Below, in pieces: positions 2,766 to 26,454 of a DNA stretch of 64,000 bases (the first letter of the stretch is position 1; the number at the start of each line of letters is the position of its first letter). Location of the stretch: NCBI RefSeq assembly GCF_019645835.1, contig NZ_CP080998.1, positions 1,984,001-2,048,000 of the forward strand. Reading direction: 5' to 3'. Source of the DNA: Mycolicibacterium holsaticum DSM 44478 = JCM 12374. Its GTDB lineage: Bacteria; Actinomycetota; Actinomycetes; Mycobacteriales; Mycobacteriaceae. The notes beneath the pieces are model-generated. The model had not been told where the DNA came from, searched no databases, and saw nothing but the letters and a program-made list of their open reading frames with translations. Both the position numbers and the translations under genes were made by a program.

Positions 2766-2780
2766 TCCCGCCCATCGGGA
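2766..2780. promoter_or_regulatory. Putative operator, perfect TCCCG-N5-CGGGA dyad (site A)
   Basis: TCCCG-CCCAT-CGGGA lies in the divergent promoter region between the genes starting at 2724 (minus) and 2824 (plus), just upstream of a possible -35 TTGACC at 2789-2794. The same dyad recurs near 9.6, 16.6 and 26.4 kb, each time in a divergent promoter region. The binding protein is not known. Confidence 0.5.
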
Positions 2781-2823
2781 CAGCACGGTTGACCCCGAAG
2801 CCGCTGGCCGGGAACGTGAAACG

Positions 2824-4065
2824 ATGAACCCCGCTGAGACGCCGGACCCGTTCGCGCCCGTCGACCTGGGTCCGGCGCGGTTACGCAACCGCGTGGTCAA
2901 GGCCGCCACCTCCGAGGGCCGGTCCCCGGACGGTTTGGTCACCGATGATCTGGTCGAGTTCCACCGGGCGTATGCCGCCGGCGGTGTCGGGATGACCACC
3001 GTCGCCTACTGCTGCGTGTCACCGCAAGGCGCCAGCGCCCCCGGCCAGATCGTGATGAGCGAGGCCGCGCTGCCGGGATTGCGCCGGTTGACCGAGGCGG
3101 TGCATGAGGAAGGTGCGGCCATCGCCGCGCAGTTGGGCCATGCCGGTGTGGTCGCATCCAAAAAGCTCACGGGTGTGACCCCGGTTTCGCCGAGCCGGTT
3201 CGTCAACCCGGCGTCCATGGCGTACTGCCGGGAGATCACCCGCGCCGAGATCGTCGAGGTCATCGACCAGTTCGGGCGCGCCGCGCAGGTCGCCGTCGAC
3301 GCCGGATTCGACGCCGTCGAACTGCATTTCGGCCATCTGTACCTGCCGAGTTCATTCCTGAGCCCGCTGATCAACCGGCGCAAGGACGACTACGGCGGCA
3401 GTATCGACAACCGCTCGCGGTTGGTGCGTGAGATCGCCAGACACGTCCGCAACGTCGTCGGCACTCAGATCGCGGTCATCGCGAAACTCAACATGGACGA
3501 CGGCTTGCCCGGCGGTATCTGGGTGGACGAGGCGTTGCGCACTGCACAACTGCTCGATGCTGACCAGAGCCTCGACGCTATCGAATTGACCCAGGGCTCA
3601 TCGGTGTTCAAACCGATGTATCTGTTCCGCGGCGACATCCCGGTCAGGGAGTTCACCCAAGTGGTGCCGCGGCCGATGCGCGCCGGCGTCCGCCTCACCG
3701 CGAAGTGGACCATGGGCGCCTATCCCTACGAGGATCTGTACATGCTCGAGGCCGCCCGGCAGTTCGTGCCGGTCATGCGAAACACCAAGCTGATCCTGCT
3801 CGGCGGAATCACCAACCGCGCCCATCTGGAAACGGGCATTCGGGAGGGCTTCCACCTGATGGCGATGGGGCGTGCGCTGCTGCGCGAGCCCGATCTCGTC
3901 AACAGGATGATCGACGACCCGGATACGAAAAGCCGTTGCACGCACAACAACAAATGCATGGTCACCGTGTTCGGGCGCACGCACTGCGTGCTGGATCCGG
4001 TGCAGCGCTACGGCGCGGCCAGCAGCGCCGAGAGTTCGCCGCAGGCCTCGGTGCGCGCGCGCTGA
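2824..4065 (+). CDS. Old yellow enzyme-family NADH:flavin oxidoreductase
   Basis: A 413-residue FMN TIM-barrel protein. The ATG at 2824 begins with the usual OYE opening (DLGPARLRNRVVKAATSEG). AQLGHAG is near residue 105, the ELHFGHLYLPSSFLSP...NRRKDDYGGS block is typical of the bacterial 2,4-dienoyl-CoA reductase/OYE group, and LLGGITN...MGRALLREPDLV forms the phosphate-binding part. The C-terminal CTHNNKC segment replaces the long iron-sulfur/FAD extension of dienoyl-CoA reductases, so this is a single-domain ene-reductase. It probably reduces an activated C=C bond in the local catabolic pathway. Its last 58 bases overlap the convergent esterase gene. Confidence 0.9.
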   Translation: MNPAETPDPFAPVDLGPARLRNRVVKAATSEGRSPDGLVTDDLVEFHRAYAAGGVGMTTVAYCCVSPQGASAPGQIVMSEAALPGLRRLTEAVHEEGAAIAAQLGHAGVVASKKLTGVTPVSPSRFVNPASMAYCREITRAEIVEVIDQFGRAAQVAVDAGFDAVELHFGHLYLPSSFLSPLINRRKDDYGGSIDNRSRLVREIARHVRNVVGTQIAVIAKLNMDDGLPGGIWVDEALRTAQLLDADQSLDAIELTQGSSVFKPMYLFRGDIPVREFTQVVPRPMRAGVRLTAKWTMGAYPYEDLYMLEAARQFVPVMRNTKLILLGGITNRAHLETGIREGFHLMAMGRALLREPDLVNRMIDDPDTKSRCTHNNKCMVTVFGRTHCVLDPVQRYGAASSAESSPQASVRAR

Positions 4066-4937
4066 GCAAGGTCGAGCGTCGGCATCGTGATGAACCCGTG
4101 AATGCCGCCCTCGTAGCGGCACTGCACGGTGTGCACACCTGCGGCGGTCAAGGCGTCGGCGTACGCGACCCCTTCGTCGCGTAACGGGTCGTGGCCGGCG
4201 ATGACGACGATCGCCGGCGGCATCCCGTGCAAGTCGGCGGCCAGTGGTGAGGCGTAGGGGTGATCGCGGTCGGCGGGGGAGGGCACGTACTGGTCCCAGT
4301 ACCACTGCAACGCCGGACGGGGATTGTAGAAACCCTGCCCGAACAGCTGATACGAGCCGGTGTCGAAGTGTGCCGCGATCATCGGGTACACCAGCAGCTG
4401 GGCGGCCAGGCTCGGCCCGCCACGATCGCGCGCCATGAGCGCTGTCACCGCCGCGAGGTTGCCCCCGGCGCTGTCACCACCGACGACGATGCGCTCAACG
4501 TCACCGCCGAACCTGTCGGCGTTGCGTGCCGTCCACTGCGTCACCGCGTAGACGTCCTCGGCGGCCGACGGCCAGCGATGCTCTGGCGCCAACCGATAGT
4601 CGACGGAGATCACCACGGCGCCAAGCAGGTTGGCGAATGCGCGGCACAACCCGTCATGGGTGTCCAGGTCGCAGAACACGAACCCGCCGCCGTGGGCGTA
4701 CACGAGAACCGGTACGGCACCGGTCGACGACGCCGGCCGGTAGATGCGCACCGGCACCGAACCGTCGGCCACGGGCACCGTCTCGTCGGTCACCGCATCC
4801 ACCTCTTCGGGTTGGCGCGACGGGACGAACCGCGACTTGATGACCGCGCGGGCCTGCGCACCGGTCATGGTGTGCACGGCGGGAAAGCCGGAATCGAGCG
4901 CCTCGAGGTAGCCGGCGATCTGCGGGTCCAGGTTCAT
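4008..4937 (-). CDS. Alpha/beta hydrolase, HSL-type carboxylesterase
   Basis: A 309-residue esterase of the hormone-sensitive-lipase family. It shows the oxyanion-hole motif HGGG (82-85), YRLAPEH (about 114-120), the nucleophile in GDSAGG (Ser156), an acid in GHDPLRDEG (Asp250) and the catalytic His280 in GIHGF, so the triad is intact. It has no signal peptide and should be cytoplasmic. A Baeyer-Villiger monooxygenase pathway makes esters or lactones, so an esterase here fits. The start overlaps the stop of iclR by four bases (ATGA), which ties both genes into one transcript. The 3' end runs 58 bases into the convergent OYE gene. Confidence 0.92.
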   Translation of the reverse strand: MNLDPQIAGYLEALDSGFPAVHTMTGAQARAVIKSRFVPSRQPEEVDAVTDETVPVADGSVPVRIYRPASSTGAVPVLVYAHGGGFVFCDLDTHDGLCRAFANLLGAVVISVDYRLAPEHRWPSAAEDVYAVTQWTARNADRFGGDVERIVVGGDSAGGNLAAVTALMARDRGGPSLAAQLLVYPMIAAHFDTGSYQLFGQGFYNPRPALQWYWDQYVPSPADRDHPYASPLAADLHGMPPAIVVIAGHDPLRDEGVAYADALTAAGVHTVQCRYEGGIHGFITMPTLDLAQRARTEACGELSALLAAP

Positions 4938-5773
4938 GCGTACTTCAGCGCGGCCGGATCAGCGGTGGGTCGCGGCATCGGGCCGCCGCGCAACGGACGC
5001 GCCTGCTGCAACGTCGGCGCCACACGCTGTGGTCCGTCCTCGACGTTGCGCCAGACCCCCATCGTCGTCATGCGTACCGGGGCGGCCAGCCGCTGGTCGA
5101 ACGACATCCGGCTCATCGGTCCGCATACCGACACCGCGGCGACGGCCTCGCCGGGGCCGCCGATCGGCGCCGCGACGCAACCGAATCCCGGCAACGACTC
5201 CTCCCGGTCGAACGCCACGCCGCGGGCGCGGATCTTCGCCAGGTCCGCGGCAAGCTGGGCGTGAGAACCGATGGAGTACTTGGTCTTCCGCTTGGTGAGA
5301 TCGACCTCGGCCAGTTCCTCGGCGTAGGCCAGCATCACCTTGCCCACCGCGGTGCAGTGCGCGGGTTGACGGCCGCCGACCCGGGTGGGGATGGCGGCGG
5401 TCATCCGGTCACCGATCTTCTCGAGGTACACGACGTCGGCGCCGTCCAGCACGGCGAGGTGCACCACCAGCCCGGTGGCACGGTGCAGATCGTGCAGCAG
5501 CGGGATCGCGGCCCGGTGCACCCGGTCCTGATGTACAGCCAACGAGCCGAGTTCGACGAGCCGCATGCCCAGTTCATAGTCGCGCCCGCTGCGGCGCAGC
5601 CACCGCAACTGGACCAACCGCTCGAGCATGCGGTGCGCCGAGGAGCGCGGCAGACCCGTGCGGCGCACGATCTGGGCCAGCGTCAACCGGCCGGGACCGT
5701 CGAACGCATCCAGCACCAGCGACACGCGGTCGATAACCGCACTAGGGGTGGTGGATTCGACGCTCACCGTCAT
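4934..5773 (-). CDS. IclR family transcriptional regulator
   Basis: A 279-residue regulator with an N-terminal winged helix-turn-helix (about residues 12-70; LTLAQIVRRTGLPRSSAHRML is the recognition part) and a C-terminal effector-binding GAF-like domain (about 85-255). A good Shine-Dalgarno (GAGGAGG) precedes the ATG at 5773. It is the only transcription factor in the catabolic island and is cotranscribed with the downstream esterase. A 13-bp inverted repeat lies 28 bases upstream and may be its own operator. Whether it also binds the TCCCG-N5-CGGGA sites is unknown. The last 25 residues (TLQQARPLRGG...) are a tail beyond the usual domain. Confidence 0.92.
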   Translation of the reverse strand: MTVSVESTTPSAVIDRVSLVLDAFDGPGRLTLAQIVRRTGLPRSSAHRMLERLVQLRWLRRSGRDYELGMRLVELGSLAVHQDRVHRAAIPLLHDLHRATGLVVHLAVLDGADVVYLEKIGDRMTAAIPTRVGGRQPAHCTAVGKVMLAYAEELAEVDLTKRKTKYSIGSHAQLAADLAKIRARGVAFDREESLPGFGCVAAPIGGPGEAVAAVSVCGPMSRMSFDQRLAAPVRMTTMGVWRNVEDGPQRVAPTLQQARPLRGGPMPRPTADPAALKYA

Positions 5774-5938: not shown

Positions 5939-7405
5939 TTACCCGTTGGCGGCGGCGCGACCGGCGCGCCGGCCGTAGAAGCTGCCGTCGCCCAGCGAAA
6001 CACCGCTGGCATACCCCCAGGCCGCCAGGCCGGCCGTGGAGCGGCCCGCCGCGAAAAGACCCGGAATGGGCTGACCGCTGACGTGCAGCACCTCGGCGTC
6101 CAGCGTGGTGTGCAGACCACCGAGGGTGAACCCGCCGGTGCTGTCGCGCAGGTCGATCGCGCCGACGGGGGAGCCGATCGGCCGGATCCACTGCGGCTTT
6201 TTGTGCAGCAGCGGATCCTCACCGCGAACGGCGCCGTCGTTGTAAGCGGTCACGGTCGCCTGCAGCGCGCCGCTCGCAAGCCCCATCTGGTGCTCCAAGT
6301 CGGCGACGGTGTCGGCCACCCAGGTCGGTGGACGCAACATCAACTGCGGTGACAGTGAGGCCATCGCCTCCTCTTGGGAGTCGCCGTCGATGATGAGGTA
6401 GGCGGTGTTGTCCTGGTGGTAAAGCGTGAGTTGGCCCACCCGGCCCGGGTAGGTGTCCTCGGCGACGTAGCGCTGCCCGCGGGCGTTGACGAGGATGCCG
6501 CGTACCAACTGCTGCGGGTCGATGAAGATCGCCACCTCGGTGGCGTCCATGTGCGCCAGGTCCGCGCCGAGCGCCTGCGCCATGCGGATGGCCTGCCCGT
6601 CGTGCTGTTCGATGGACGCGGCGGGACGGCCCGCGATGCGCGGTGCGTGCCGCGCCACCATGGACTCGTTGTAGGCGAAGCTACCGGTCGCGAGCACGAC
6701 GCCGCGGCGCGCGCGGATCGTGACGTCGGTGCCGTACTGGCGCGCACAGACTCCGGCCACCCGGCCGTCGGATTCGACGACGAGGCGCTGGACCCGCACG
6801 TCATAGATCGCCCGCGCACCTGCCGCGGTGGCGGTCTCCACGAGCGGCTTCATCAGCATGTAGCCGGCGCTGGCCTCGCCCTGCTTCTTGTTCGACATCT
6901 GCGGTACGTGGCCGCGCGGCGCGGGGTCGGCGATCGTGTTGAACGGGTAGGAGTTCTCCCCGCCGCTGTACATCAGGCCCTGGTCGCCCATCGGCTCCCA
7001 GCCCGGTTCGGCGAAGAACTCCGGCTTGAACACCACCCCGCAGTCGACGAGCCAGTCGAAATGGCCGACACTGCCCGCGCAGTAGTCGGCGATGCGGTTC
7101 TCGTCGGCGCCAGGGCCCATGGCGACGTTGAGGAACGCCGCCATGTTCTCGACGGAATCGGTGAACCCGCAGGCTTTTTGGATCGCGGTGCCGCCGCCGA
7201 GGTAGATGAACCCGCCGGCCATCGACGCCGCGCCGCCCCACGAGCCGGTGCGTTCGAGCACCAGCACGTCCGCGCCCGCCCGGCAGGCCTCGACCGCTGC
7301 GGCGGCGCCTGCCACCCCGTATCCGGCGATGACGACGTCGGCCTCGTGGTCCCAGGTGGTGATCGACGCGGCCGCAACCGGGGTGACGTCGGCGTCTGGC
7401 GTCAC
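5939..7405 (-). CDS. FAD-dependent oxidoreductase, 3-ketosteroid delta-1-dehydrogenase/fumarate reductase family
   Basis: A 488-residue flavoprotein. The dinucleotide-binding fold is at the N-terminus (G28-Y-G30-VA-G33), with LERTGSWGG near 50, RRGVVLATGSFAYN in the middle and the C-terminal FAD block TGGFTLGGLHTTLDAEVL...GLFAAGRSTAG. This arrangement belongs to the family that includes KstD and soluble fumarate reductases; family members dehydrogenate or reduce next to a carbonyl. Because it is encoded with HsaA-like and HsaC-like enzymes, a delta-1 dehydrogenation of a steroid-like ring is the best guess, but ketosteroid specificity cannot be shown from sequence alone. It overlaps the upstream dioxygenase gene by four bases. 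Confidence 0.88.
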   Translation of the reverse strand: MTPDADVTPVAAASITTWDHEADVVIAGYGVAGAAAAVEACRAGADVLVLERTGSWGGAASMAGGFIYLGGGTAIQKACGFTDSVENMAAFLNVAMGPGADENRIADYCAGSVGHFDWLVDCGVVFKPEFFAEPGWEPMGDQGLMYSGGENSYPFNTIADPAPRGHVPQMSNKKQGEASAGYMLMKPLVETATAAGARAIYDVRVQRLVVESDGRVAGVCARQYGTDVTIRARRGVVLATGSFAYNESMVARHAPRIAGRPAASIEQHDGQAIRMAQALGADLAHMDATEVAIFIDPQQLVRGILVNARGQRYVAEDTYPGRVGQLTLYHQDNTAYLIIDGDSQEEAMASLSPQLMLRPPTWVADTVADLEHQMGLASGALQATVTAYNDGAVRGEDPLLHKKPQWIRPIGSPVGAIDLRDSTGGFTLGGLHTTLDAEVLHVSGQPIPGLFAAGRSTAGLAAWGYASGVSLGDGSFYGRRAGRAAANG

Positions 7406-8310
7406 GGTCGCATCGATGCGGGCAGGTCACTGACCCATTCGTGGCCCCAGTAGCTGTCGGCGGTGATCTCCTCTGCGGTGTAGTACGTTTCGTCGACGCG
7501 CATGCCGTCGGTGCCGAACTCGATGTCCCAGTCCCCGGGTGCGCGCACGTAGAAGGACACCATCTTGTCGTTGGTGTGCCTGCCCAGCGTCGAGGACAAC
7601 TGGAAGCCGTCCTTGTTGACCCGGTCCAGGGCCTGCCCGACGGTGTCCAGGCTGTCCACCTCCACCATCAAGTGAATCAGGCCGGGGTCGCGTAACGTCA
7701 TCGCCGGGCAGATCGCCAGGCTGTGGTGGCGTTCGTTGATCCCGAGGAACCGCACCCGCAGCGGGCCGAACTCCGGTGGCGTCGGCACCCGGAACGCGCC
7801 GCGGGACCTGAAACCGAGTACCTCCGTGTAGAACTCGAACAGCCCCGGCACGTCGAGTGCCGGCAGCACCACGTGGCCGAGGCCTTGGTCACCGGTGACG
7901 AACCTGGCCCCGAACGGTGTGACGACGGGGCTGTGGTCAAGCACCGCGCCGTGGAACACCTCCGTCGAGGTGCCCGCGGGATCGTCGAACGCGAGAACTT
8001 CTTCTACTCGGCGCGCGTCGGCCTCCTGAAGGGACAGTTCCTTCGCCGCGACTCCGGCGTCTGTCAGCGTGGCCTTCACCCGCTCGAGCGCGGCATGGTC
8101 GCGCACTTCCCAGCCCACGGTGACGATCTTGTCGACGTCGCCGGGCACCACGATGATGCGCGCGGCGCGCTCGTCCATGCGCAGATACAGTGCGTCCGGA
8201 TCCGGGCCGGAGCCTTCGGCGAACCCGAGCACGCCGAACGCGAAGCGCCGCCAGCGCTCCATGTCGGTGGCTTGAACCTTGACGTATCCCAGGCTTTTCA
8301 GATCACTCAC
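7402..8310 (-). CDS. Extradiol (meta-cleavage) catechol dioxygenase, HsaC/BphC-like, VOC fold
   Basis: A 302-residue type I extradiol dioxygenase of two VOC domains. The likely Fe(II) ligands are all present in the C-terminal domain: H146 (QGLGHVVL), H213 (LIHLMVEV) and E264 (WDIEFG). The active-site acid/base residues are also visible: His195/196 (ERHHSLA), His245 (GRHTND) and Tyr254. Layout and length match HsaC, which opens the catecholic A ring of 9,10-secosteroids. It should cleave a catechol made by the flavin monooxygenase encoded just upstream; the product would suit the hydrolase at 15.6-16.5 kb. Start ATG at 8310; 14 bases separate it from the upstream gene. Confidence 0.9.
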   Translation of the reverse strand: MSDLKSLGYVKVQATDMERWRRFAFGVLGFAEGSGPDPDALYLRMDERAARIIVVPGDVDKIVTVGWEVRDHAALERVKATLTDAGVAAKELSLQEADARRVEEVLAFDDPAGTSTEVFHGAVLDHSPVVTPFGARFVTGDQGLGHVVLPALDVPGLFEFYTEVLGFRSRGAFRVPTPPEFGPLRVRFLGINERHHSLAICPAMTLRDPGLIHLMVEVDSLDTVGQALDRVNKDGFQLSSTLGRHTNDKMVSFYVRAPGDWDIEFGTDGMRVDETYYTAEEITADSYWGHEWVSDLPASMRP

Positions 8311-8324: not shown

Positions 8325-9506
8325 CTAGATCATCGCCCGCAGCGGACCCTGCGGATCCACGCCCAGCGAACTCAGTGCGGAGGCGTGATAGACGGTGCCC
8401 GGCACGTGGATGGCATGGGCCATGCCCGCGTGCGCGTCACGCCAATACCGTTGCAATGGTTTGTCCATGCGCAGCGCGTTGCCGCCCGAGCGGGTGAAGA
8501 TCTGGTCGACGGCCATGACCGCGCGCCATACGGCGCGGATCTGGGTGCGGCGACCCGCGGCCCGGTCGGCGAAGGACACCTCCTTGCCGGCGTCGACGAT
8601 GTCGTAGATGCGGTCGGCGTTGGCCAGGATCTCCTGACGCGCAGCGTTGATGTCGGCGGCCGCCTCGCCGACGGCGTACAAGACATAGGGGTCGTCTTTG
8701 ACCGCGGTGCCCGCCGCGCTGACGCGCTCGCGCTGATAGTCCAGGTGCGCGGCCAGCGCGCCCTCGCAGATACCGATGGTCGCCGAACTGATTCCGAGCG
8801 GGAACATCGTCGACCACGGCATCTTGTAGAGGGTCTTGGTCATGCCGGCCTCGATCTGAGCGGTGCCGTCCATCACCTTCATGGCGTCCATGGTGCGGTA
8901 CTCCGGCACGAACGCGTCCCGCACGATGACGTCCTTGGAGCCGGTGCCGCGCAGGCCCACCACATCCCATGAATCGGGCACGATCTCGTAATCGCTGCGC
9001 GGCAGGATCATGTGCAGCATCTGCGGCGGCATCAGCGGCGTGCCGTCGGCGTCACCGATCATGGCTCCCAGGATGATCCAATCGCACGCGTCGGTGCCCG
9101 AGGAGAACTGCCAGCGGCCGTTGAAGACGTATCCGCCGTCCACCGGTTTGGCCACGCCCTGCGGTGCGTACGGCGAGGCGATCCAGGTGTCGGGGTCATC
9201 GCCCCACACCTCGTCGGCCACCCGGGGATCGGCGTAGGCGAACTGATAGGGATGCACGCCGACCACGCCGTTGATCCAGCCGGCCGCGGGATCCAGCGCG
9301 GCGGTGGCCATCACCGTCTCGGCGAACTCGCGCGGATGCACTTCGTATCCGCCGTGCGACTCGGGCTGCAGCAGCCGGATCGAGCCGATGGCCTTCATGC
9401 TCTTGACCGTTGCGTCGGGCAACTGGCCGATCTTCTCGGCCTCCACGGCCTGCGCCGTGAACTGGTCGGCGAGTTCCATCAGCCTGTCGAGTACGCGCTC
9501 ACTCAT
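8325..9506 (-). CDS. Acyl-CoA dehydrogenase-fold flavin-dependent monooxygenase, HsaA-like
   Basis: A 393-residue protein of the acyl-CoA dehydrogenase superfamily, group D monooxygenase branch (HsaA, HpaH-like oxygenase component). The start chosen is ATG at 9506, preceded by AGGAAC; an upstream in-frame ATG at 9575 would run through the promoter and operator site B. Segments such as GGYEVHPREFAETVMATAALDPAAGWINGVVG (in two parts) and GSKDVIVRDAFVPEYR follow HsaA. Such oxygenases use reduced flavin from a partner reductase to ortho-hydroxylate a phenol to a catechol. The HsaB-type reductase is not in the window. First gene of a three-gene operon with the dioxygenase and KstD-like enzyme. Confidence 0.88.
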   Translation of the reverse strand: MSERVLDRLMELADQFTAQAVEAEKIGQLPDATVKSMKAIGSIRLLQPESHGGYEVHPREFAETVMATAALDPAAGWINGVVGVHPYQFAYADPRVADEVWGDDPDTWIASPYAPQGVAKPVDGGYVFNGRWQFSSGTDACDWIILGAMIGDADGTPLMPPQMLHMILPRSDYEIVPDSWDVVGLRGTGSKDVIVRDAFVPEYRTMDAMKVMDGTAQIEAGMTKTLYKMPWSTMFPLGISSATIGICEGALAAHLDYQRERVSAAGTAVKDDPYVLYAVGEAAADINAARQEILANADRIYDIVDAGKEVSFADRAAGRRTQIRAVWRAVMAVDQIFTRSGGNALRMDKPLQRYWRDAHAGMAHAIHVPGTVYHASALSSLGVDPQGPLRAMI

Positions 9507-9575
9507 CGTCGAAGTTCCTATCTGTGTGTGGCCTGGTTCATGGTCTACCGCAGTGGGCTGCGGTTCGGGCGGCAA

Positions 9576-9590
9576 TCCCGTTCAGCGGAC
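9576..9590. promoter_or_regulatory. Putative operator, imperfect TCCCG-N5-CGGGA dyad (site B)
   Basis: TCCCG-TTCAG-CGGAC lies in the 196-bp divergent region between the HsaA-like gene (start 9506, minus) and the BVMO gene (start 9703, plus). It is nearly the reverse complement of site E at 26400 (GTCCGCTGAGCGGGAC). Confidence 0.4.
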
Positions 9591-9702
9591 CGGATTCAGG
9601 TCAGTATTCGCGGGTCCGTTGCCCGGGCAGTGGGCGGGGCAAGCGTCCGGTGACCGGGAAGTCGACCGTGCGGCGGCCACCCAAACGGCCTACCGTGGCG
9701 CC

Positions 9703-16515: not shown

Positions 16516-16556
16516 CGCAACAGCCTGCCACGCCGGTGCGCGGCAGCGGTGACGTG

Positions 16557-17529: not shown

Positions 17530-17540
17530 CGGGGCCGCTG

Positions 17541-18398: not shown

Positions 18399-18410
18399 AG
18401 GGCGTCATCC

Positions 18411-19598
18411 ATGAAATCTGGTGCACTACGCCCGCTGACCGGGCTGGCCATGATCATCGCGATCGCCTTGATCGTGACCCTGGCCATCACCTTGTTCCGC
18501 GGCGACTTCACCAAAACCGTGCCCATCACCATCATCTCCGAACGCGCCGGCCTGGTCATGAACCCCGACGCGCGGGTCAAGCTCAACGGTGCACAGGTCG
18601 GCACGGTGGCGTCGATCGACACCCTGCCCGACGGTAAGGCCGCCATCCACCTCGCGATGGAACCGTCAGCGCTGCAACTGATCCCGGCCAACGTGCGGGT
18701 GGACATCACGTCGTCGACCGTGTTCGGCGCGAAGTATGTCGCGCTGGTCCCACCGGATGATCCCGCACCCCAGTCGCTGCGGTCCGGACAGGTCCTCGAC
18801 TCCGAGCACGTGACAGTCGAAATCAACACGATCTTCCAACAACTCGTTGCCGTGCTGGACAAGGTGGAACCCGCCAAGCTCAACGAGACGCTCGGCGCGA
18901 TCGCGACTGGTCTGGACGGTCGCGGCGCGAAGTTCGGCCAGATGATGTCTGACCTGGACACGATGCTGGCCAAGATCAACCCCAGCCTGGATAACCTCGC
19001 CCACGACATAGCGGTGGCCCCCGAGGTGCTCGACGCTTATGCCGACGCGGCGCCCGATCTCGTCACGATCGCCGAACGCGCCACCCGCATGAGCGACACC
19101 ATCGTGGAGAAGCAAAGCGATCTGGACACGTTGCTGCTCAGCACGATTGGGCTGGCCGAAATCGCCGGCGAGGTGGTGGCCACCAACCGGCGGGCGCTCA
19201 CCGATGTCGCTGACCTGCTGGTGCCCACCACCGACCTGACAAACCAGTACAACGCCGCGCTGAACTGCGCCCTGGCCGGTATGGCGCCACTGGCCAAAGC
19301 CCCGCCGACACCGGTACCCGGTGTGCTGCTGCTGGATTCCTTCGTGCTGGGTTCCGAACGTTACCGTTACCCGGGCAACCTGCCCAAGGTCGCGGCCACC
19401 GGTGGGCCGCAGTGCGGGCGGCTACCCGACGTCGGGTACGAGACCCGGGCACCGTATGTCGTCACCGACATCGACGCCAACCGTGCGCAATACGGCAACC
19501 AGGGCATCCTGCTCAACTCCGATGCGCTCAAACAGGCGTTGTTCGGCCCGATCGACGGGCCGCCACGCAACACCGCCCAGATCGGGCAGCCGGGATGA
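18411..19598 (+). CDS. Mce family protein, MceA position
   Basis: A 395-residue Mce protein: one N-terminal membrane helix (about residues 10-28), an MlaD/Mce beta-barrel domain (about 35-115, with AGLVMNPDARVKLNGAQVG), then long helices that build the periplasm-spanning needle, and a C-terminal domain with two cysteines. Mce proteins A-F form a hetero-hexameric tunnel carrying lipids or sterols from the outer envelope to the YrbE permease. First of six mce genes that follow each other with one- or four-base overlaps. Confidence 0.92.
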   Translation: MKSGALRPLTGLAMIIAIALIVTLAITLFRGDFTKTVPITIISERAGLVMNPDARVKLNGAQVGTVASIDTLPDGKAAIHLAMEPSALQLIPANVRVDITSSTVFGAKYVALVPPDDPAPQSLRSGQVLDSEHVTVEINTIFQQLVAVLDKVEPAKLNETLGAIATGLDGRGAKFGQMMSDLDTMLAKINPSLDNLAHDIAVAPEVLDAYADAAPDLVTIAERATRMSDTIVEKQSDLDTLLLSTIGLAEIAGEVVATNRRALTDVADLLVPTTDLTNQYNAALNCALAGMAPLAKAPPTPVPGVLLLDSFVLGSERYRYPGNLPKVAATGGPQCGRLPDVGYETRAPYVVTDIDANRAQYGNQGILLNSDALKQALFGPIDGPPRNTAQIGQPG

Positions 19599-20617
19599 GG
19601 CTTTTTGCCACCGCGCTCAAGTTCGGCGTGTTCGGGGGCGTCATGGTGCTGATGACCGCCGGTCTGTTCGCGGTCTTCAGCGAGTACCGATCGGGCACCG
19701 CCCACGGCTACTCCGCGGTGTTCACCGATGTGTCGAGCCTGGAACCGGGGGATTCGGTGCGGGTTTCGGGAATCCGGGTCGGCACCGTGACCGGCGTATC
19801 GCTGCAGACCGACCACAAGGTCCTCGTCGAGTTCGACGCCGACCCCGAGATCGTGCTCACCACGGGCACTAGGGCCGCGGTGCGTTACCTCAACCTGGTC
19901 GGCGACCGCTATCTCGAACTGCTCGACGGGCCTGGTTCTACCGAAATCCAGGCCGCCGGATCGCAAATACCGACCGAGCGCACCGACCCGGCGCTCGATC
20001 TGGACCTGCTGCTCGGTGGGCTCAAGCCGGTCATCCGGGGCCTCAACCCACAGGACGTCAACGCGCTGACCAGCTCGCTGATCCAGATCCTGCAGGGGCA
20101 GAGCAGCAACGTGGAGTCCCTTTTCGCCAAGACGGCATCTTTCACCAACGCGATCGCCGACAACGGTGAGACAGTGCAGCAGCTGGTCGACAACCTCAAC
20201 GCGGTGATGACCACCGTCGCCAAGGACGGGGACAAGTTCTCCGGTGCCGTCGACCGCCTCGAACAGTTGATCACCGGCTTGGCCGCCGACCGCGATCCCA
20301 TCGGCGAGGCGATCACCGCGCTCGACAACGGCACCGCGTCGCTGGCCGACCTGCTCAACCACGCGCGTCAACCGCTGGCAGGCAGCATCGACCAACTCAA
20401 TCGGGTCGCTCCGTTGTTGGAGAAAGACGAACCGTTGCTCGACATTTCACTGCAGAAGCTCCCGGAGAACTACAAGAAGGTGGTGCGGCTGGGCGCCTAC
20501 GGCAGCTTCTTGAATCAGTACCTTTGCGGAATCTCGGTGCGCGTCACCGATCTACAGGGTCGCACCGCGCACTTTCCCTGGATCATCCAGAACACCGGAA
20601 GGTGCGGGGAGCCCTGA
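19595..20617 (+). CDS. Mce family protein, MceB position
   Basis: A 340-residue Mce protein starting at ATG 19595 (MRLFATALKFGVFGG...), overlapping mceA by ATGA; a longer open frame upstream lies inside mceA. N-terminal helix about 8-27, Mce domain about 38-115 (FTDVSSLEPGDSVRVSGIRVG), helical needle region 130-290, and a short C-terminal domain with a pair of cysteines (YLCG, NTGRCG). Confidence 0.92.
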   Translation: MRLFATALKFGVFGGVMVLMTAGLFAVFSEYRSGTAHGYSAVFTDVSSLEPGDSVRVSGIRVGTVTGVSLQTDHKVLVEFDADPEIVLTTGTRAAVRYLNLVGDRYLELLDGPGSTEIQAAGSQIPTERTDPALDLDLLLGGLKPVIRGLNPQDVNALTSSLIQILQGQSSNVESLFAKTASFTNAIADNGETVQQLVDNLNAVMTTVAKDGDKFSGAVDRLEQLITGLAADRDPIGEAITALDNGTASLADLLNHARQPLAGSIDQLNRVAPLLEKDEPLLDISLQKLPENYKKVVRLGAYGSFLNQYLCGISVRVTDLQGRTAHFPWIIQNTGRCGEP

Positions 20618-21699
20618 TGCTGAAATACCGCAAGGCGTCGCTTATCCGCACCGGCTTCATCGGCACGGTGTTGATCGTGCTGGTATGCGCGGTCGGGCTG
20701 CAACCGGAGCGGCTGCTCTCGATGGCGACGTCGATCAGATATCAGGCGCTGTTCGCCGAGGCCGGTGGGCTGACGGCGGGTAACGACGTGAAAGTGTCCG
20801 GCATGAAGGTCGGTTCGGTTTCGCGGGTCGCACTCAGCAAGGGCAAGGCGTTGGTCACCTTCACCGTCAACGCCACGGTGGCGCTGGGATCACAGACCAC
20901 CGCTCACATCCGCACCGGGACCTTGCTCGGTGAGCGGATGATGACGCTGGAACCCGACGGCACCGAGAAGTTGCGTCCCTCCGATGTGATCCCACTGTCG
21001 CGGACCTCGTCGCCGTACTCGTTGACCGAGGCGGTCAGCGAGTTCACGGCGAACACCGCTACCACCGACACCGCGGCGCTGAACCGGTCGCTGGACACGT
21101 TGTCGGAGACGATCGAGCGGATCGCCCCGCAACTCGGGCCCACGTTCGACGGGCTGAGCCGGCTGTCACAGTCGCTGAACGGCCGCGACGAGACGCTGGG
21201 AAACCTGCTGAACAGCGCCGCCGACGTCACCGGTGTCCTCTCCGAACGCAGCCAGCAGCTCAACACGCTCATCCTCAACGCCAACGACTTCACGGGTGTG
21301 CTCGAGCAACGCAGGCACGCCATCGTGAACCTGCTCGCCCAAACATCAGCGGCGGCACAGCAATTGACCAACATCGTGCACGACAACGAAGCCGAACTCG
21401 CGCCCACCCTGGAGAAGCTGAACATGGTCTCCGACATGCTCGAGCGTAACCGCGACAACATCGCCAAAGCCTTGACGGGCCTGGCCAAGTACCAGGTCAC
21501 CCAGGGTGAGGCGGTCAACAACGGCTTCTACTACAACGCGTTCGTCGGCAACCTCATCCCGGGACCGGCCCTGCAACCGTTCCTCGACTACCTGTGGGGC
21601 TTCAGACGCGGTGTCAACGCCGGCCAGCCTCCGGACAACGCCGGGCCCCGCGCCGAATTCCCGTTCCCGTACAACGGGATTCCCGGAGGATCACGATGA
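20617..21699 (+). CDS. Mce family protein, MceC position
   Basis: A 360-residue Mce protein; ATG 20617 shares one base with the mceB stop (TGATG). N-terminal helix about 12-30, Mce domain about 40-120 (FAEAGGLTAGNDVKVSGMKVG), then a long helical region with heptad-like leucines, ending in a short proline-rich tail (PRAEFPFPYNGIP). Subunit of the lipid-import tunnel. Confidence 0.92.
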   Translation: MLKYRKASLIRTGFIGTVLIVLVCAVGLQPERLLSMATSIRYQALFAEAGGLTAGNDVKVSGMKVGSVSRVALSKGKALVTFTVNATVALGSQTTAHIRTGTLLGERMMTLEPDGTEKLRPSDVIPLSRTSSPYSLTEAVSEFTANTATTDTAALNRSLDTLSETIERIAPQLGPTFDGLSRLSQSLNGRDETLGNLLNSAADVTGVLSERSQQLNTLILNANDFTGVLEQRRHAIVNLLAQTSAAAQQLTNIVHDNEAELAPTLEKLNMVSDMLERNRDNIAKALTGLAKYQVTQGEAVNNGFYYNAFVGNLIPGPALQPFLDYLWGFRRGVNAGQPPDNAGPRAEFPFPYNGIPGGSR

Positions 21700-23129
21700 A
21701 CCGCCGTAAGCGTCTGACCGTCGCGTTGTCGGCGGTACTGGCCGGGCTGCTGATCGCCGGTTCGGCGGTACTGGTCTACCAGAACTACCTCAGTCCCAAG
21801 ACGATCACCGCGTACTTCACCTCGGCCACCGCCATCTATCCCGGCGACGAGGTGCGGGTTGCGGGAGTCAAGGTGGGCACCATCGAGGCCATCGAGCCTG
21901 TCGGAGCCGAGGCGAGGGTCACGCTGCGCGTCGATCGTGACGTGCCCGTGCCCGCCGACGCCCAGGCCGTCGTCGTCGCGCAGAACCTCGTCTCCGCACG
22001 CTACGTTCAGCTCACACCCGCCTACGAGACGAGCGGGCCGACGATGCCCGACGGCGCGGTGATCGGCGCCGACCGCACCGCCGTGCCCGTCGAGTGGGAC
22101 GAGGTCAAGACCCAACTGATGCGCCTGGCAACGGAGTTGGGGCCCTCCGGCGATGTCTCGACGACCTCGATGGGACGTGTCATCGACAGCGCGGCCAGCG
22201 CGATGAACGGCAACGGAGAGAAGTTGCGCGAGACCATCACCCAACTCGCACAGGTGGGCCGCATCCTGGCCGACGGCAGCGCAGACATCGTCGACGTCAT
22301 CAAGAACCTTCAGGTCTTCGTCGCCGCGTTGCGTGACAGCAACACTCAGATCGTGCAGTTCTCGGACCGGTTGGCCACCGTGAGCAGCCTCGTGGATGCC
22401 AGCAGGTCCGACCTCGACGCGGCACTGACCTACCTGTCGGAGGCCGTCGTCGAGGTGCAGCGATTCGTAGCCGGAAGCAGCGAGCAGACCGCCGAGCAGA
22501 TATCCCGGTTGGCCAACGTGACACAGAACCTCGCCGACCGCCGCCTGGCCCTGGAGAACGTCCTGCACGCGGCGCCCAACGCGATCGCCAACGGCTACAA
22601 CATCTACAACCCCGACACCGGGACGATGATCGGTGGGTTCGCCATGTCGAACTTCGCCAACCCGGTACAGCTGGTCTGCTCGTCGATCGGCGCGGTCAAG
22701 AACGCCACCGCATCAGAGACTTCCAGGCTCTGTGCGGAATACCTCGGCCCTGCGCTGCGTCTGCTCAACTTCAACTACCTGCCCATGCCGTTCAACGCCT
22801 ACCTACAGAAATCGCCGAGCCCGGACAACCTGATCTACTCGGATCCCGACCTGGCGCCCGGCGGCGCAGGCGGCAGCCCGCTGCCGCCCGAACTCGCACC
22901 GGCGGTGTCGGCCTACACAGGTGCCGGCGACATGCCGCCCCCGGCGGGCTGGGACACCCCACCGGCTCCTCCGGGCGCCTATGCGCCGCACGGGTTGCCA
23001 GGACATCCCCAGCCCGCGCTGTATCCCGGGGCGCCCGTCCCGCCGGGAGTGCCCACGGCCGCGCCGTCAGGGCCGACGACCGTTTCGGACATGCTGCTTC
23101 CCGCGGAAGCGCAGGAGCCGCCATCATGA
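21696..23129 (+). CDS. Mce family protein, MceD position, with proline-rich tail
   Basis: A 477-residue Mce protein; ATG 21696 overlaps mceC by ATGA and follows GGAGG. N-terminal helix about 10-28, Mce domain about 35-120 (TAIYPGDEVRVAGVKVG), helical needle 140-300, then a conserved C-terminal block (NPVQLVCSSIGAVKNATASE). Residues after about 390 form a long Pro/Ala/Gly-rich tail, common in MceD proteins and probably disordered in the periplasm. Confidence 0.92.
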   Translation: MNRRKRLTVALSAVLAGLLIAGSAVLVYQNYLSPKTITAYFTSATAIYPGDEVRVAGVKVGTIEAIEPVGAEARVTLRVDRDVPVPADAQAVVVAQNLVSARYVQLTPAYETSGPTMPDGAVIGADRTAVPVEWDEVKTQLMRLATELGPSGDVSTTSMGRVIDSAASAMNGNGEKLRETITQLAQVGRILADGSADIVDVIKNLQVFVAALRDSNTQIVQFSDRLATVSSLVDASRSDLDAALTYLSEAVVEVQRFVAGSSEQTAEQISRLANVTQNLADRRLALENVLHAAPNAIANGYNIYNPDTGTMIGGFAMSNFANPVQLVCSSIGAVKNATASETSRLCAEYLGPALRLLNFNYLPMPFNAYLQKSPSPDNLIYSDPDLAPGGAGGSPLPPELAPAVSAYTGAGDMPPPAGWDTPPAPPGAYAPHGLPGHPQPALYPGAPVPPGVPTAAPSGPTTVSDMLLPAEAQEPPS

Positions 23130-24310
23130 CCGTCGGCAAGGCGCTTCGCCGCATGACCGTGCTCGCGTCCTGCGTCGTCCTGACCGCAACCGGATGTGCC
23201 TTCGAAGGGCTGAACTCACTGCCGCTTCCCGGTACCGTCGGGCACGGTCCCGACGCCTCCACCTACCGTGTGCTCGTCGCCAATGTCGGTTCGCTGGAGC
23301 CGAACTCACCGGTCATGATCGACGATGTCGTGGTCGGCAGCGTCGGCAAGATGCGGGTCGACAACTGGCACGCCGACGTGGAGATCTCTGTCGAACCCGG
23401 CGTCGCGATACCGGCCAATGCGGTGGCCACCGTCGGGCAGACGAGCCTGCTCGGCTCGATGCACTTGGCGCTAAACCCACCGTTGGGACAACCGGCCAGC
23501 GGCACGCTGCAACCAGGTGCGACCATCGGTCTGGACCGGTCCTCGACGTATCCGTCCACCGAACAGACCCTGGCCTCGCTGTCCGTCGTGGTCAACGGCG
23601 GGGGCCTTGGCCAGGTGGGCGACATCGTCAGGGAGTTCAACGCCGCGCTCAACGGCCGCGAGAGCCAGATCAGAAGCCTGCTGACCCGGCTGAACGACTT
23701 CGTCGGCATGCTCGACACCCAACGTGACGACATCAACGCGTCGATCGCGGCGATGGACCGGATGGCCACCACGTTCGCCGGCCAGCGAGACGTGATCACC
23801 GCTGCGCTGCACCGGATTCCGCCCGCGCTGGACGTCTTGGTCACAGAGCGGCCGCGCATCACCGAAGCCCTCGACAAACTCCGCCAATTCAGCGACACCG
23901 CCACCGGACTGATCAACGACTCCCAAGCCGATCTTGTCCGCAACCTCGAGAACCTCGAGCCGACGTTGCGGGCCCTCGCCGACGTCGGACCCGACCTGGG
24001 CACGGTGCTGTCGTACGCGCCGACCTTCCCCTACACGCAGAGCTTCATCGACCGCGCGATCCGAGGCGACTACATGAACCAGTTCATCGTGTTCGACTTC
24101 ACCATCCCGCGGCTCAAGCGGGGATTGTTCCTGGGCACCCGGTGGGGCCAGGAGGGCGCCCCGATGGTCCCCGCACCCGGAGATCCATGGTACCTGGCCT
24201 ACACCTACGACCCGCTCAAGGCGCCCATCACCGCCACCCCCACCGAAGTCGCCGAGTTGCCACCGTTGGCGGTGTCGCCGACCGGTGCGGTCCCCGAGGG
24301 CGGCAGCTGA
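23126..24310 (+). CDS. Mce family lipoprotein, MceE position (LprK-like)
   Basis: A 394-residue Mce lipoprotein. Unlike the other subunits it has a lipobox: LTATGC places the acylated Cys at residue 24. The Mce domain follows (VGSLEPNSPVMIDDVVVGSV, about 55-125), then helices to about 290. In M. tuberculosis the E subunits of mce operons are likewise lipoproteins. ATG 23126 overlaps mceD by ATGA. Confidence 0.92.
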   Translation: MTVGKALRRMTVLASCVVLTATGCAFEGLNSLPLPGTVGHGPDASTYRVLVANVGSLEPNSPVMIDDVVVGSVGKMRVDNWHADVEISVEPGVAIPANAVATVGQTSLLGSMHLALNPPLGQPASGTLQPGATIGLDRSSTYPSTEQTLASLSVVVNGGGLGQVGDIVREFNAALNGRESQIRSLLTRLNDFVGMLDTQRDDINASIAAMDRMATTFAGQRDVITAALHRIPPALDVLVTERPRITEALDKLRQFSDTATGLINDSQADLVRNLENLEPTLRALADVGPDLGTVLSYAPTFPYTQSFIDRAIRGDYMNQFIVFDFTIPRLKRGLFLGTRWGQEGAPMVPAPGDPWYLAYTYDPLKAPITATPTEVAELPPLAVSPTGAVPEGGS

Positions 24311-25791
24311 TGCTCACCCGTTTCGTCCGGAATCAGTTGATCGTCTTCACGGTCGCCTCCGTCGTCGGCATCTCGGTGATGTTGTTCAGCTACATGCAGG
24401 TACCGACGCTGCTGGGAATCGGCCGCATCACGGTGAAGCTGGAGTTGGCCGGCACCGGCGGGCTTTACCGGTTCGCCAACGTCACCTATCGCGGCGTACA
24501 GGTCGGCAAGGTGATGGATGTGCAGCCCACCCGCGACGGTGCCGTCGCCACCCTGTCGCTGGGTACGTCACCGAGAATCCCGGCAAGCTCGCACGCCTAC
24601 GTGCGCAGCGTCTCGGCAGTCGGGGAACAGTACGTCGATCTGACGCCCGCCAATGCCGACGGGCCCTACCTGGCAGACGGATCGGTCATCGCCAAGGAGA
24701 ACACGTCTGTGCCGCAGGCCGTCGGCCCCATGCTCGATCAGGTCAGCGCCCTGCTGGACAGTGTGCCCAAGGACAAGATCAGCGCGCTGCTCGACGAAAC
24801 GTTCAAGGGCCTCGACGGTGCCGCCTACGACATCGGATCGCTGATGGACTCGTCGGCGACGGTGGTCGCCGAGACCGACGCCGTCGCCGATCGCGCCCGA
24901 TCGTTGATCGACGACAGCCGCCCGTTGCTCGACGGCCAGGCGCAGTCCGCGGACAGCATCCGAACGTGGGCGCGCAGCGTGGCGGGCATCACCGACCAGC
25001 TCGCCGCCAACGATGCGCAGATACGCACGGTGCTGGACGCCGGACCCGGCGCCGCCGACGAGGCGTCCCAGCTGTTCAACCGCGTCAAGGCCACGCTGCC
25101 GGTGCTGTTGGCCAACCTCACCACGATCGGCAAGGTCGGCGTCACCTATCACGCGTCCCTGGAACAACTGCTGGTGCTGTTCCCGCCCTACGTCGCCGCC
25201 ACCCAGACGGTCGGCGTCTCGAGAAACAACCCGACCGGAATGGCGTTGGGAGACTTCACCATGGTGATGAACGATCCACCGGCATGCACCGTCGGGTTCC
25301 TGCCGCCGAGCATGTGGCGGTCGCCCGAGGACACCACCGTCGTCGACACCCCCGACGGGCTGTATTGCAAGCTTCCGCAGGACTCGCCGATCGGCGTTCG
25401 CGGTGCTCGCAACTACCCCTGCATGGGTCAGCCGGGAAAGCGGGCCCCCACGGTGGAGATCTGTGAAAGTGACCGGCCTTTCGAGCCGCTGGCAATGCGC
25501 CAACACGCCACCGGCCCGTACCCCATCGACCCGAACCTGATCGCCCAAGGCGTGGCCCCCGACGACCGGGTCGACTTCGGTGACCGGATCTTCGGGCCGG
25601 TCGAGGGCACCCCGGCGCCCGCACCGGCCCCGCCGGCGCCCGAACCCGCAGGACCCTCCGTTGCGGTGGCGACCTACGATCCGCAGACGGGTCAGTACGC
25701 CACACCCGACGGAAAGGTGTTCCGCCAGGGCGACCTGGTTACGCCGGCCGGCCCTCGGCCGTGGCAGGATCTGTTCGCCACCGGACCATGA
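24310..25791 (+). CDS. Mce family protein, MceF position
   Basis: A 493-residue Mce protein and last gene of the operon; ATG 24310 shares its first base with the mceE stop. N-terminal helix about 8-30, Mce domain about 40-120 (GLYRFANVTYRGVQVGKV), helical needle to about 310, then a large C-terminal region with several cysteines (CTVGF, YCKL, YPCMG, EICES) and a Pro/Ala-rich stretch. Only 15 bases separate its stop from that of the convergent secreted-protein gene. Confidence 0.92.
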   Translation: MLTRFVRNQLIVFTVASVVGISVMLFSYMQVPTLLGIGRITVKLELAGTGGLYRFANVTYRGVQVGKVMDVQPTRDGAVATLSLGTSPRIPASSHAYVRSVSAVGEQYVDLTPANADGPYLADGSVIAKENTSVPQAVGPMLDQVSALLDSVPKDKISALLDETFKGLDGAAYDIGSLMDSSATVVAETDAVADRARSLIDDSRPLLDGQAQSADSIRTWARSVAGITDQLAANDAQIRTVLDAGPGAADEASQLFNRVKATLPVLLANLTTIGKVGVTYHASLEQLLVLFPPYVAATQTVGVSRNNPTGMALGDFTMVMNDPPACTVGFLPPSMWRSPEDTTVVDTPDGLYCKLPQDSPIGVRGARNYPCMGQPGKRAPTVEICESDRPFEPLAMRQHATGPYPIDPNLIAQGVAPDDRVDFGDRIFGPVEGTPAPAPAPPAPEPAGPSVAVATYDPQTGQYATPDGKVFRQGDLVTPAGPRPWQDLFATGP

Positions 25792-25806
25792 CGGTCGGCG
25801 GATCGC

Positions 25807-26328
25807 TCAACCGCCGACCTTGACCAGCTTGAACGGCATGCTGATGAACACCGGCTTGCTCACCCCGCAGGCGCCGCTGACGCCCGTGGTCTGGTCTTCA
25901 CCCGCCAACGTCGTCGACGCGGGGTCGGTTTGGCTGCCGTCCTCCACGACCGGCACGAAGCGGAACACCTGAAGCCCGGGCGCCCCCGTGCCGTCCGGGC
26001 ACGGCACCCAGTTCTCCACGGTGTGCTTGACGTACCAGATGCCGCCGGTCTTGTAAATCGGTGCGGTCCAACCGAAGTCGCTGACCACAGTGCCCGTGCA
26101 TTCGGTCGGGTAACTGCAGACCGTCGAGATCGTCCAGGTGCTGCGCAAGCTGGCTTCATCGCGAAACTTGTCGTTGGTCTTGGCCCATTCACCGTTCGAC
26201 GTCGCGGTGTAGGTGCCGTTGAGGCCCCAGTCGTCCTCGGACGCGTGGGCGGTAGCCGCGAATCCGCCCGCCGTGAGTCCCAGCGCCACCGCCGCCGCGC
26301 ACCCCACCAGTTCGGAGATCCCCAACAC
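25807..26328 (-). CDS. Secreted mycobacterial protein of unknown function, paralogue of the 26523 gene
   Basis: About 173 residues with a Sec signal peptide (hydrophobic AAAVALGLTAGGFAATAHA, cleavage near AHA). The start is GTG at 26328, or TTG one codon later, which sits at better distance from the GAGGAG at 26337-26332. The mature part has six cysteines in a pattern fitting disulfides (TVCSYPTECTG, PCPDG, GACG) and ends PFKLVKVGG. The product of the divergent gene at 26523 has the same plan, ending PFRLVRL, so the two look like distant paralogues. Function unknown. The gene ends next to mceF; a role with the lipid importer is inference only. Confidence 0.75.
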   Translation of the reverse strand: MLGISELVGCAAAVALGLTAGGFAATAHASEDDWGLNGTYTATSNGEWAKTNDKFRDEASLRSTWTISTVCSYPTECTGTVVSDFGWTAPIYKTGGIWYVKHTVENWVPCPDGTGAPGLQVFRFVPVVEDGSQTDPASTTLAGEDQTTGVSGACGVSKPVFISMPFKLVKVGG

Positions 26329-26399
26329 ACACTCCTCACCGCGGCGGCCCGGCCAGGTAACCAAACCTAGCGGTGGTGCCGATGGCGGTGCGCACCGTC

Positions 26400-26454
26400 G
26401 TCCGCTGAGCGGGACGACCCGAGGGCAGGCGATGCGCTGTCCCGCCTGCAGGGA
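26400..26454. promoter_or_regulatory. Two putative operators (sites E and F) between divergent secreted-protein genes
   Basis: Site E is GTCCG-CTGAG-CGGGA (26400-26414) and site F is TCCCG-CCTGC-AGGGA (26440-26454), each one or two bases off the perfect TCCCG-N5-CGGGA dyad. Just downstream is another inverted repeat, CCCTT-A-AAGGG (26458-26468). The region holds the promoters of the genes starting at 26328 (minus) and 26523 (plus). Confidence 0.45.

Follow-up and report, generated by a model that had tools for sequence, protein, structure and literature searches.

Genes and promoter sites of the island

The DNA analysed here is a stretch of 64,000 nucleotides from Mycolicibacterium holsaticum DSM 44478 = JCM 12374 (genome positions 1984001-2048000 of a 5.62-Mb genome), called hereafter the window. 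It carries an island of catabolic and Mce import genes, in whose promoters an inverted repeat, TCCCG-N5-CGGGA (the dyad), recurs, and among these genes lies one encoding an IclR-family regulator. The pattern described below fits eight promoters of the window: those of an OYE gene, of the divergent 115-amino-acid/Dabb genes, of the hsaA operon, of a Baeyer-Villiger monooxygenase-like (BVMO) gene, of hsaD, of the yrbE-mce operon and of two genes for small, probably exported proteins. The features are as follows.

1770..2384, minus strand: Dabb-domain gene (Pfam PF07876).
2377..2724, minus strand: gene for a 115-amino-acid protein (from its translation), whose GTG coincides with the predicted start of transcription; it heads the divergent transcript, and precedes and overlaps the start of the Dabb gene.
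2731..2736, minus strand: -10-like TAGCCT, 37 bp from the centre of site 2766.
2766..2780, no strand: perfect dyad TCCCGCCCATCGGGA in the gap that separates OYE from the divergent 115-amino-acid/Dabb genes; a single symmetric site for two promoters.
2812..2817, plus strand: -10-like GAACGT, 39 bp from the centre of site 2766.
2824..4065, plus strand: OYE-family (Oxidored_FMN) gene (Pfam PF00724), predicted from the spacing to be leaderless in this strain.
4008..4937, minus strand: LipP1-type alpha/beta hydrolase gene (NCBIfam NF058653, 399.7 versus a cut-off of 350).
4934..5773, minus strand: IclR-family regulator gene (HTH_IclR and IclR_C), candidate binder; no site directly upstream.
5939..7405, minus strand: KstD-like FAD-binding dehydrogenase gene (Pfam PF00890; NF005512 above cut-off).
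7402..8310, minus strand: HsaC-like extradiol dioxygenase gene (above the cut-off of the BphC model, below that of HsaC; best solved relative 2zi8).
8325..9506, minus strand: HsaA-like flavin monooxygenase gene (Pfam and NCBIfam matches), which heads the operon in this strain.
9540..9545, minus strand: -10-like GACCAT, 38 bp from the centre of site 9576.
9576..9590, minus strand: hsaA-operon promoter site GTCCGCTGAACGGGA, model score 23.3.
9645..9659, plus strand: BVMO promoter site GTCCGGTGACCGGGA, model score 18.0.
9691..9696, plus strand: -10-like TACCGT, 39 bp from the centre of site 9645; the GTG start at 9703 would then be leaderless.
9703..11331, plus strand: BVMO gene (Pfam FMO-like).
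13124..14368: alkyl-sulfatase-like (metallo-beta-lactamase) gene, downstream of hsaD.
14365..15615: sulfotransferase gene, downstream of hsaD.
15643..16515, minus strand: HsaD-like hydrolase gene (domain match), predicted from the spacing to be leaderless in this strain.
16522..16527, minus strand: -10-like CAGGCT, 37 bp from the centre of site 16557-16571.
16557..16571, no strand: site TTCCGCTGATCGGGC, positioned for hsaD, model score 14.9.
16573..16587, no strand: perfect dyad TCCCGTTAAGCGGGA (minus-strand reading TCCCGCTTAACGGGA), positioned for yrbE-mce, model score 10.2.
16618..16623, plus strand: -10-like GAACCT, 38 bp from the centre of site 16573.
16681..25791, plus strand: import operon of yrbEA, yrbEB and six mce genes (Pfam MlaE, MlaD, Mce4_CUP1).
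21665..21679, no strand: third perfect dyad, in Mce coding sequence, model score 10.4; no spaced -10 on either side.
25807..26328, minus strand: gene for a small protein with an export-signal-like start, as read by eye (open reading frame 25807-26457, without Pfam match).
26364..26369, minus strand: -10-like TAGGTT, 38 bp from the centre of site 26400-26414.
26400..26414, plus strand: site GTCCGCTGAGCGGGA, positioned for the leftward small gene, model score 18.3.
26440..26454, no strand: imperfect dyad TCCCGCCTGCAGGGA, positioned for the rightward small gene; arms 9/10, spacing 38, model score -8.7.
26485..26490, plus strand: -10-like GAGGAT, 38 bp from the centre of site 26440.
26523..26960, plus strand: gene for a small protein with a signal-peptide-like start, as read by eye, without Pfam match.

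Frequency of the dyad

The dyad had been noticed in a sequence-only reading of the window, which listed six sites. All six 15-mers (starting at 2766, 9576, 16557, 16573, 26400 and 26440) were found in place; the list had overlooked the BVMO gene's own site (9645-9659). The weakest of the six is 26440-26454, where the arms and the spacing fit but the spacer model does not, and the eighth promoter, that of the rightward small gene, rests on it.

Two perfect copies had been counted, both assigned to promoters, with less than one expected by chance. There are in fact three (2766, 16573 and 21665); the first two do lie in promoters, whereas the third falls within overlapping Mce reading frames. The chance estimate proved right: the mean was 0.275 per simulated window, and one of 200 first-order Markov sequences reached three. 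Genome-wide, the perfect dyad occurs at 12 places, three of them within the window, versus five places for the reversed control pattern. When up to two mismatches were allowed, the dyad was not enriched in the window (73 copies, versus a shuffled mean of 91.4, with 98 of 100 shuffles reaching 73). This loose count, being below expectation, was discarded as evidence, and the claim therefore cannot rest on counting.

Besides the arms, the sites at 9576, 16557 and 26400 have the spacer CTGAN in common, and that at 16573 is close to it (CTTAA). The exact 14-mer TCCGCTGANCGGGA is present in two copies in the genome, both within the island. It was dropped as a general definition because it catches the hsaA-type sites but misses the OYE dyad, which has a variable spacer. 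The arms and the spacing to the -10 hexamer, taken together, unite the two kinds.

Conservation among relatives

Two sets of loci, 40 orthologous loci and 80 named loci, were gathered via orthologues of the IclR gene; their genomes partly overlap. Inspection of the hsaA-like promoters revealed a site of the form KYCCRCTSAYCGGGA, which is that of most one-way promoters, in 112 of 115 (88 distinct sites, as the 115 include genomes fetched twice), with the consensus [GT][TC]CC[GA]CT[CG]A[CT]CGGGA[TA]. The first base of the 14-mer was located 79-86 or 55-57 bp before the hsaA start codon in 112/112 cases. The OYE dyad was conserved at all ten arm positions (TCCC[GA]-N5-[CT]GGGA) in 44/44 orthologous promoters, and a ten-match dyad was found in 43/43 real promoters versus 0/860 shuffled copies. 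The sequence-only reading had named lack of conservation in orthologous promoters, and equal frequency in coding sequence, as findings that would speak against it. The first is contradicted by these counts, and the second by the distribution of strong sites (score of at least 13) across the 40 orthologous loci: 94 were found in 378 kb outside the coding sequence mapped by tblastn versus 5 in 391 kb within it, a density about 20-fold higher outside than inside.

A matrix built from the hsaA-promoter sites alone was then applied to the 300 bp upstream of other genes. Identical sequences were removed for this cross-gene comparison, as they were for the per-gene spacing counts, the OYE-promoter counts and the -35 comparison. 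The model matched 70 of 72 BVMO promoters, 6 of 7 yrbEA, 28 of 64 hsaD and 11 of 43 OYE promoters (shuffles: 0.4, 0, 1.0 and 0.6, respectively); since divergent upstream regions overlap, the hsaA/BVMO and the hsaD/yrbEA matches are partly the same sites. Matches were also obtained upstream of the Est (7/83), KstD (6/86), SDR (1/61), SulfoT (2/4) and yrbEB (1/14) sets, and none was detected by this model upstream of HsaC (0/97) or Dabb (0/48). Shuffled controls gave 0 to 1.4 matches per gene set.

Eleven loci from other genera of the family (L194-L204), whose IclR proteins share 69-78% identity with the one studied here, have the same motif, usually about 1.3 kb ahead of the hsaA-like gene. At L195, the only such locus examined, the intervening gene encodes a KshA-type Rieske oxygenase (L195:5041-6249, KshA_C). 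The operon promoter of L195-L199, L202 and L203 often contains two sites 51-53 bp apart (about five helical turns), whereas most Mycobacterium promoters have one.

A fixed distance to the -10 element

The -10 element of mycobacterial promoters has the form TAnnnT, and leaderless transcripts occur in these bacteria. Measured from the site centre towards the gene, an NAnnnT hexamer begins at a distance of 37-39 bp at all seven promoter sites of the window: 37 bp for hsaD and for the 115-amino-acid gene (leftward from the OYE site), 38 bp for hsaA, yrbE and both small genes, and 39 bp for BVMO and OYE. Among 297 sites from all loci, 47% had NAnnnT at exactly 38 bp in the direction of the motif, versus a median of 1.7% for offsets of 10-119; in the opposite direction the values were 19% and 2.7%. 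Gene by gene, promoters with a site had a -10 hexamer within 37-39 bp in 92/98 (hsaA), 56/60 (BVMO), 16/16 (OYE), 6/6 (yrbEA, all at 38) and 18/28 (hsaD) cases, versus a mean of 5-9% for other 3-bp windows. In the other genera the rate at 37-39 bp was 0.83 (24 strong sites) versus 0.08 at other offsets, and 14 loci with an IclR protein at 52-67% identity gave a weaker signal (0.56 for 9 strong sites). As the promoters of the different genes are apparently not homologous, shared descent is no easy explanation of the common spacing.

The site centre would thus be at about -50 relative to the predicted transcription start, with the whole site falling short of the -35 position. We considered whether the dyad could itself be the -35 element of an alternative sigma factor, and rejected this because its centre, 38 bp from the -10, is too distant.

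Lack of a spaced -10 also led us to reject 21665, 26662 and 50531 as sites; the perfect dyad at 21665 is probably not a genuine one. A near-perfect palindrome, GCCCGCTGACCGGGC, is located at 18430-18445, about 20 bp into the mceA reading frame (model score 15.4), and is likely due to chance.

Three of the divergent gene pairs (hsaA/BVMO, hsaD/yrbE and the two small genes) have two sites each, one positioned per direction. Between OYE and the 115-amino-acid/Dabb genes there is a single site, with both arms perfect and -10 hexamers placed symmetrically on both sides. All 44 orthologous OYE promoters had TAnnnT to the left of the site, and 38 of them had NAnnnT to its right. The 115-amino-acid gene (2377-2724, minus strand) was absent from the earlier list of genes; a 121-amino-acid family of no assigned function, found in 23 of 42 loci, is by position probably its orthologue.

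From the spacing, we predict that the OYE, BVMO, hsaD and 115-amino-acid genes are leaderless in this strain, with +1 at the start codon; for the last of these the call is arithmetic on its translation start. In relatives the computed start often falls inside the assumed gene (down to -21 for BVMO), which we attribute to start codons carried over from the alignment, and leaderless transcription therefore stays a prediction.

Extent of the probable regulon

Of 51 matches to a broader pattern in the genome beyond the island, 20 chosen for their closeness to the consensus were read. One had a spaced -10, and 19 lay in open reading frames with clear codon bias. Judged by these 20 of 51 matches, the regulon appears to be local. 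Two more candidate promoters, member-like by their conservation, were found 6-9 kb to the left of the window. The first (genome 1975415, L151:11414) has its site before an open reading frame of about 358 amino acids, with a -10 at 38; the second (genome 1977855, L151:13854) is the site of a SnoaL-type gene, conserved in relatives, without a spaced -10. The 358-amino-acid protein (L151:10295-11431, genome 1974295-1975431) is conserved and without Pfam match, and has its own site and spaced -10.

Joint control of import and breakdown had been proposed from the sequence. This agrees with the arrangement in the present strain; yrbE genes were found in just 8 of the 40 stretches (11-20 kb) fetched from relatives.

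The candidate regulator

The protein encoded at 4934-5773 belongs to the IclR family (HTH_IclR 50.9 bits, cut-off 22; IclR_C 110.6 bits, cut-off 24). Its best NCBIfam subfamily is TIGR02431 (PcaR/PcaU/PobR), with a score of 124.3 bits, below the cut-off of 284.75. In a survey of conserved gene families (families present in at least 6 of 42 loci, open reading frames of at least 100 amino acids), it was the sole regulator. The IclR gene was detected in 63 of 118 genomes of the genus (E <1e-100, at least 66% identity; 67/118 at 1e-40), and an hsaA-like gene in 70/118 (1e-190).

Sites in hsaA promoters were compared between genomes with and without the IclR gene. The set comprised 41 promoters with IclR (this genome and 40 of 60 others with both genes) and all 9 from those of the 70 hsaA-bearing genomes that lack it. 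With a model trained on BVMO sites, a score of at least 12 was reached in 40/41 promoters with IclR versus 1/9 without (Mann-Whitney p = 7.6e-6). Three second hsaA copies (L053_0, L056_0 and L057_0) were excluded from this comparison; including them gave p = 2.5e-5. Of the nine promoters without IclR, four scored at most 1.2, four 7.7 to 11.6, and one 16.0. In the tree, several of the losses sit inside IclR-bearing clades (G011; G076; G058 with G097; G030).

The arms of the site resemble published IclR operators, closely that of PobR (TTGTCCGATSATCGGACAR), and also the NdgR/LtbR consensus KTYCRSMWYSYGRRM. Compared with the group-1 operator GKTYCRYW3-4RYGRAMC, the half TCCRC fits TYCRY, and YCGGGA, the second half, deviates from it in two places. 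The sequence-only reading had suggested a single regulator, perhaps the local IclR protein. Three observations point indirectly the same way: it is the only conserved regulator found in the island, the site resembles published IclR operators, and in hsaA promoters the site is usually weakened or lost when IclR is absent, with one clear counterexample (G030).

Enzymes and neighbouring genes

The HsaA-, HsaC-, HsaD- and KstD-like proteins of the window score below the NCBIfam equivalog cut-offs (377.5/450, 372.5/450, 285.9/400 and 139.6/789, respectively), and the HsaC-like protein passes the biphenyl-2,3-diol dioxygenase model (377.6 versus 366.5). Of 42 Mycobacterium loci, 17 contain a KshB-like reductase family. 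Together, the KshA-type or KshB-like, KstD-like and HsaA/C/D-like proteins indicate steroid-ring-type substrates. Given the scores below the cut-offs for the cholesterol enzymes and the match to the biphenyl model, the substrate is probably not the usual cholesterol intermediate.

Genes for a Zn-dependent dehydrogenase, an alkyl-sulfatase-like metallo-beta-lactamase and a sulfotransferase (11333-15615) adjoin hsaD; the sulfatase/sulfotransferase pair was mapped in just 3 of the 40 stretches from relatives (L044, L054 and L065). Directly after the island, 28776-32295 holds a helix-hairpin-helix/SLBB gene, a competence-family (ComEC-like) gene and a DNA polymerase III delta-like gene.

Discussion

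The dyad is likely the operator of a local catabolic regulon that answers to the local IclR protein, probably through activation from a position near -50. This protein would bind the dyad as a dimer and, with a pathway intermediate bound, would aid RNA polymerase, so that Mce uptake and ring breakdown (KstD-like, HsaA/C/D-like, BVMO, OYE) would switch on together. Being encoded downstream of the hsaA-hsaC-kstD-like genes in the same direction, IclR could boost its own supply. Activation is favoured by the rigid spacing and the upstream position. PobR and PcaU, of the same family, act as activators.

A number of observations weigh against this reading. All conservation counts come from related species, which are not independent observations. 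No site precedes the IclR gene itself (0/104 upstream regions with the hsaA-trained model), and some model matches lack the spacing (KstD-associated 0/6 and Est-associated 1/4 with it), which makes these matches doubtful. The loss comparison depends on the measure: at least 12 of 13 matches to TCCRCTSANCGGGA were present in 38/41 promoters with IclR and in 3/9 without. Four of the nine cases without IclR are, in the tree, paralogous or long-branch hsaA copies, which leaves few clean independent losses (about four, three of them with a weakened or lost site), and one of the nine genomes, G018, carries IclR proteins at 52-56% identity. Genome G030 (L186) keeps a strong site (16.0 with the BVMO-trained and 22.9 with the hsaA-trained model) and has no IclR gene in its genome at 1e-40; it may have lost IclR recently, or its site may be read by another protein. 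Genomes without IclR also hold matches to TCCGSTSANCGGGA (mean 2.8 versus 4.3 per genome, a weak separation). Finally, a fair -35 (5 or 6 of 6 matches) is seen in most OYE promoters (27 of 38), and activation is not forced there.

This last point bears on the sign of control. The same IclR protein on the same operator could be a repressor, or activator or repressor depending on the promoter, released by a pathway intermediate; we consider this unlikely. The family contains repressors, activators and dual regulators according to passages of PMC8222616 and PMC9582017, the latter describing both IclR-type activators of aromatic pathways and IclR-type repressors in R. opacus, and a fixed position can suit a repressor as well. 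Repression fits poorly, however, with a site wholly upstream of the -35 position at a rigid distance from the -10, and with the hsaA, BVMO and hsaD promoters, in which no -35 was detected above shuffled spacers.

That the sites are real promoter operators read by another protein, either an IclR paralogue or an unrelated regulator encoded elsewhere, appears rather improbable. It would account for the intact site of G030, for the three of nine promoters without IclR that look intact by simple consensus matches and for the motif matches in IclR-less genomes; the genome holds 39 IclR-like candidates at first look, and NdgR/LtbR has a similar published motif. Yet the conserved gene families include no regulator other than IclR, genomes that lack this IclR usually show a weakened or lost site, and motif and spacing accompany IclR in other genera.

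Control of the island by the TetR-family proteins KstR or KstR2, the dyad being incidental, is very improbable. The island does resemble steroid-ring degradation, which these proteins govern elsewhere (passages of PMC8228715), but the sole exact TNNAAC-N2-GTTNNA match in the window (15535) is in sulfotransferase coding sequence, matches with up to one mismatch are at chance level (8 versus 5.5) and no AAGCAAGNNCTTGCTT-like site was found within 3 mismatches. Operators of the KstR and KstR2 types are absent from the island promoters. Chance palindromes in GC-rich DNA, to which the lack of enrichment of the loose dyad would point, are hardly credible in view of the conservation, the spacing and the coding/noncoding contrast.

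In kind the system is a familiar one, apparently a catabolic regulon of the IclR type, with an unusually strict promoter geometry and, in this strain, an Mce importer among the targets. Searches of the open-licence PMC literature returned no description of a regulon on this dyad. Closest by subfamily is the PobR/PcaU/PcaR branch (4-hydroxybenzoate, protocatechuate), to which TIGR02431, the PobR operator and adjoining targets in aromatic-ring catabolism are likenesses. The present protein differs in a score far under the cut-off, in up to eight promoters with steroid-ring-type and Mce targets, and in an operator with the inner spacer CTSA and a CGGGA arm. The group-1 operators of Suvorova and Gelfand, as given in passages of PMC8222616, share the one fitting half, a 3-bp centre and a location mostly centred 20-80 nt upstream of gene starts. 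They differ by having RYGRA in place of the YCGGGA arm, and tandem sites at 18-22 nt where the promoters studied here mostly carry a single site, set at a constant distance from the -10. Neither 'mycobacteri' nor 'steroid' occurs in the main text of PMC8222616.

Among steroid systems, mce4 is controlled by KstR, and the C-19+ cluster of M. smegmatis by PadR. The KstR/KstR2 cholesterol regulons likewise join steroid catabolism to a dedicated regulator (passages of PMC8228715), but with another protein family and another motif. The C-19+ cluster, too, is an additional set of steroid genes outside the KstR regulon (passages of PMC5962712), and mce genes (MSMEG_2854-2865) adjoin it (passages of PMC4881515). 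Here, in contrast, the regulator is of the IclR family and the KstD-like protein scores well short of the KstD models; neither PadR nor KshA, both features of the C-19+ cluster, was found among 30 Pfam-scanned open reading frames at 132-32295. The clusters of R. ruber Chol-4 (kshA, hsaC, iclR, padR, chnB, hsaA, hsaD; passages of PMC6498646) resemble the island in gene content, with an IclR gene and a BVMO among their members, and the L195 operon, from another genus, is headed by a KshA-type oxygenase. The passages of PMC6498646 describe no operator or regulon.

More broadly, and tentatively, an IclR-family activator could run a third actinobacterial steroid-type regulon apart from KstR and KstR2, joining Mce import to ring breakdown. 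It would use one rigid geometry (operator at -50, often leaderless promoters), with a single symmetric operator firing two divergent promoters, kept across several genera of the family. In Rhodococcus, kshA1 and kshA2 are reported to be induced by androstenedione, with no KstR site and no known regulator (passages of PMC8228715). With a candidate regulator, an operator and a target list in place, questions of this kind can be tested directly. The fixed -50 geometry offers a clean system in which to study the action of an IclR protein on mycobacterial RNA polymerase, and the regulon provides a lead to the substrate of an orphan HsaACD-like/Mce cluster that roughly half of the genomes sampled from the genus contain.

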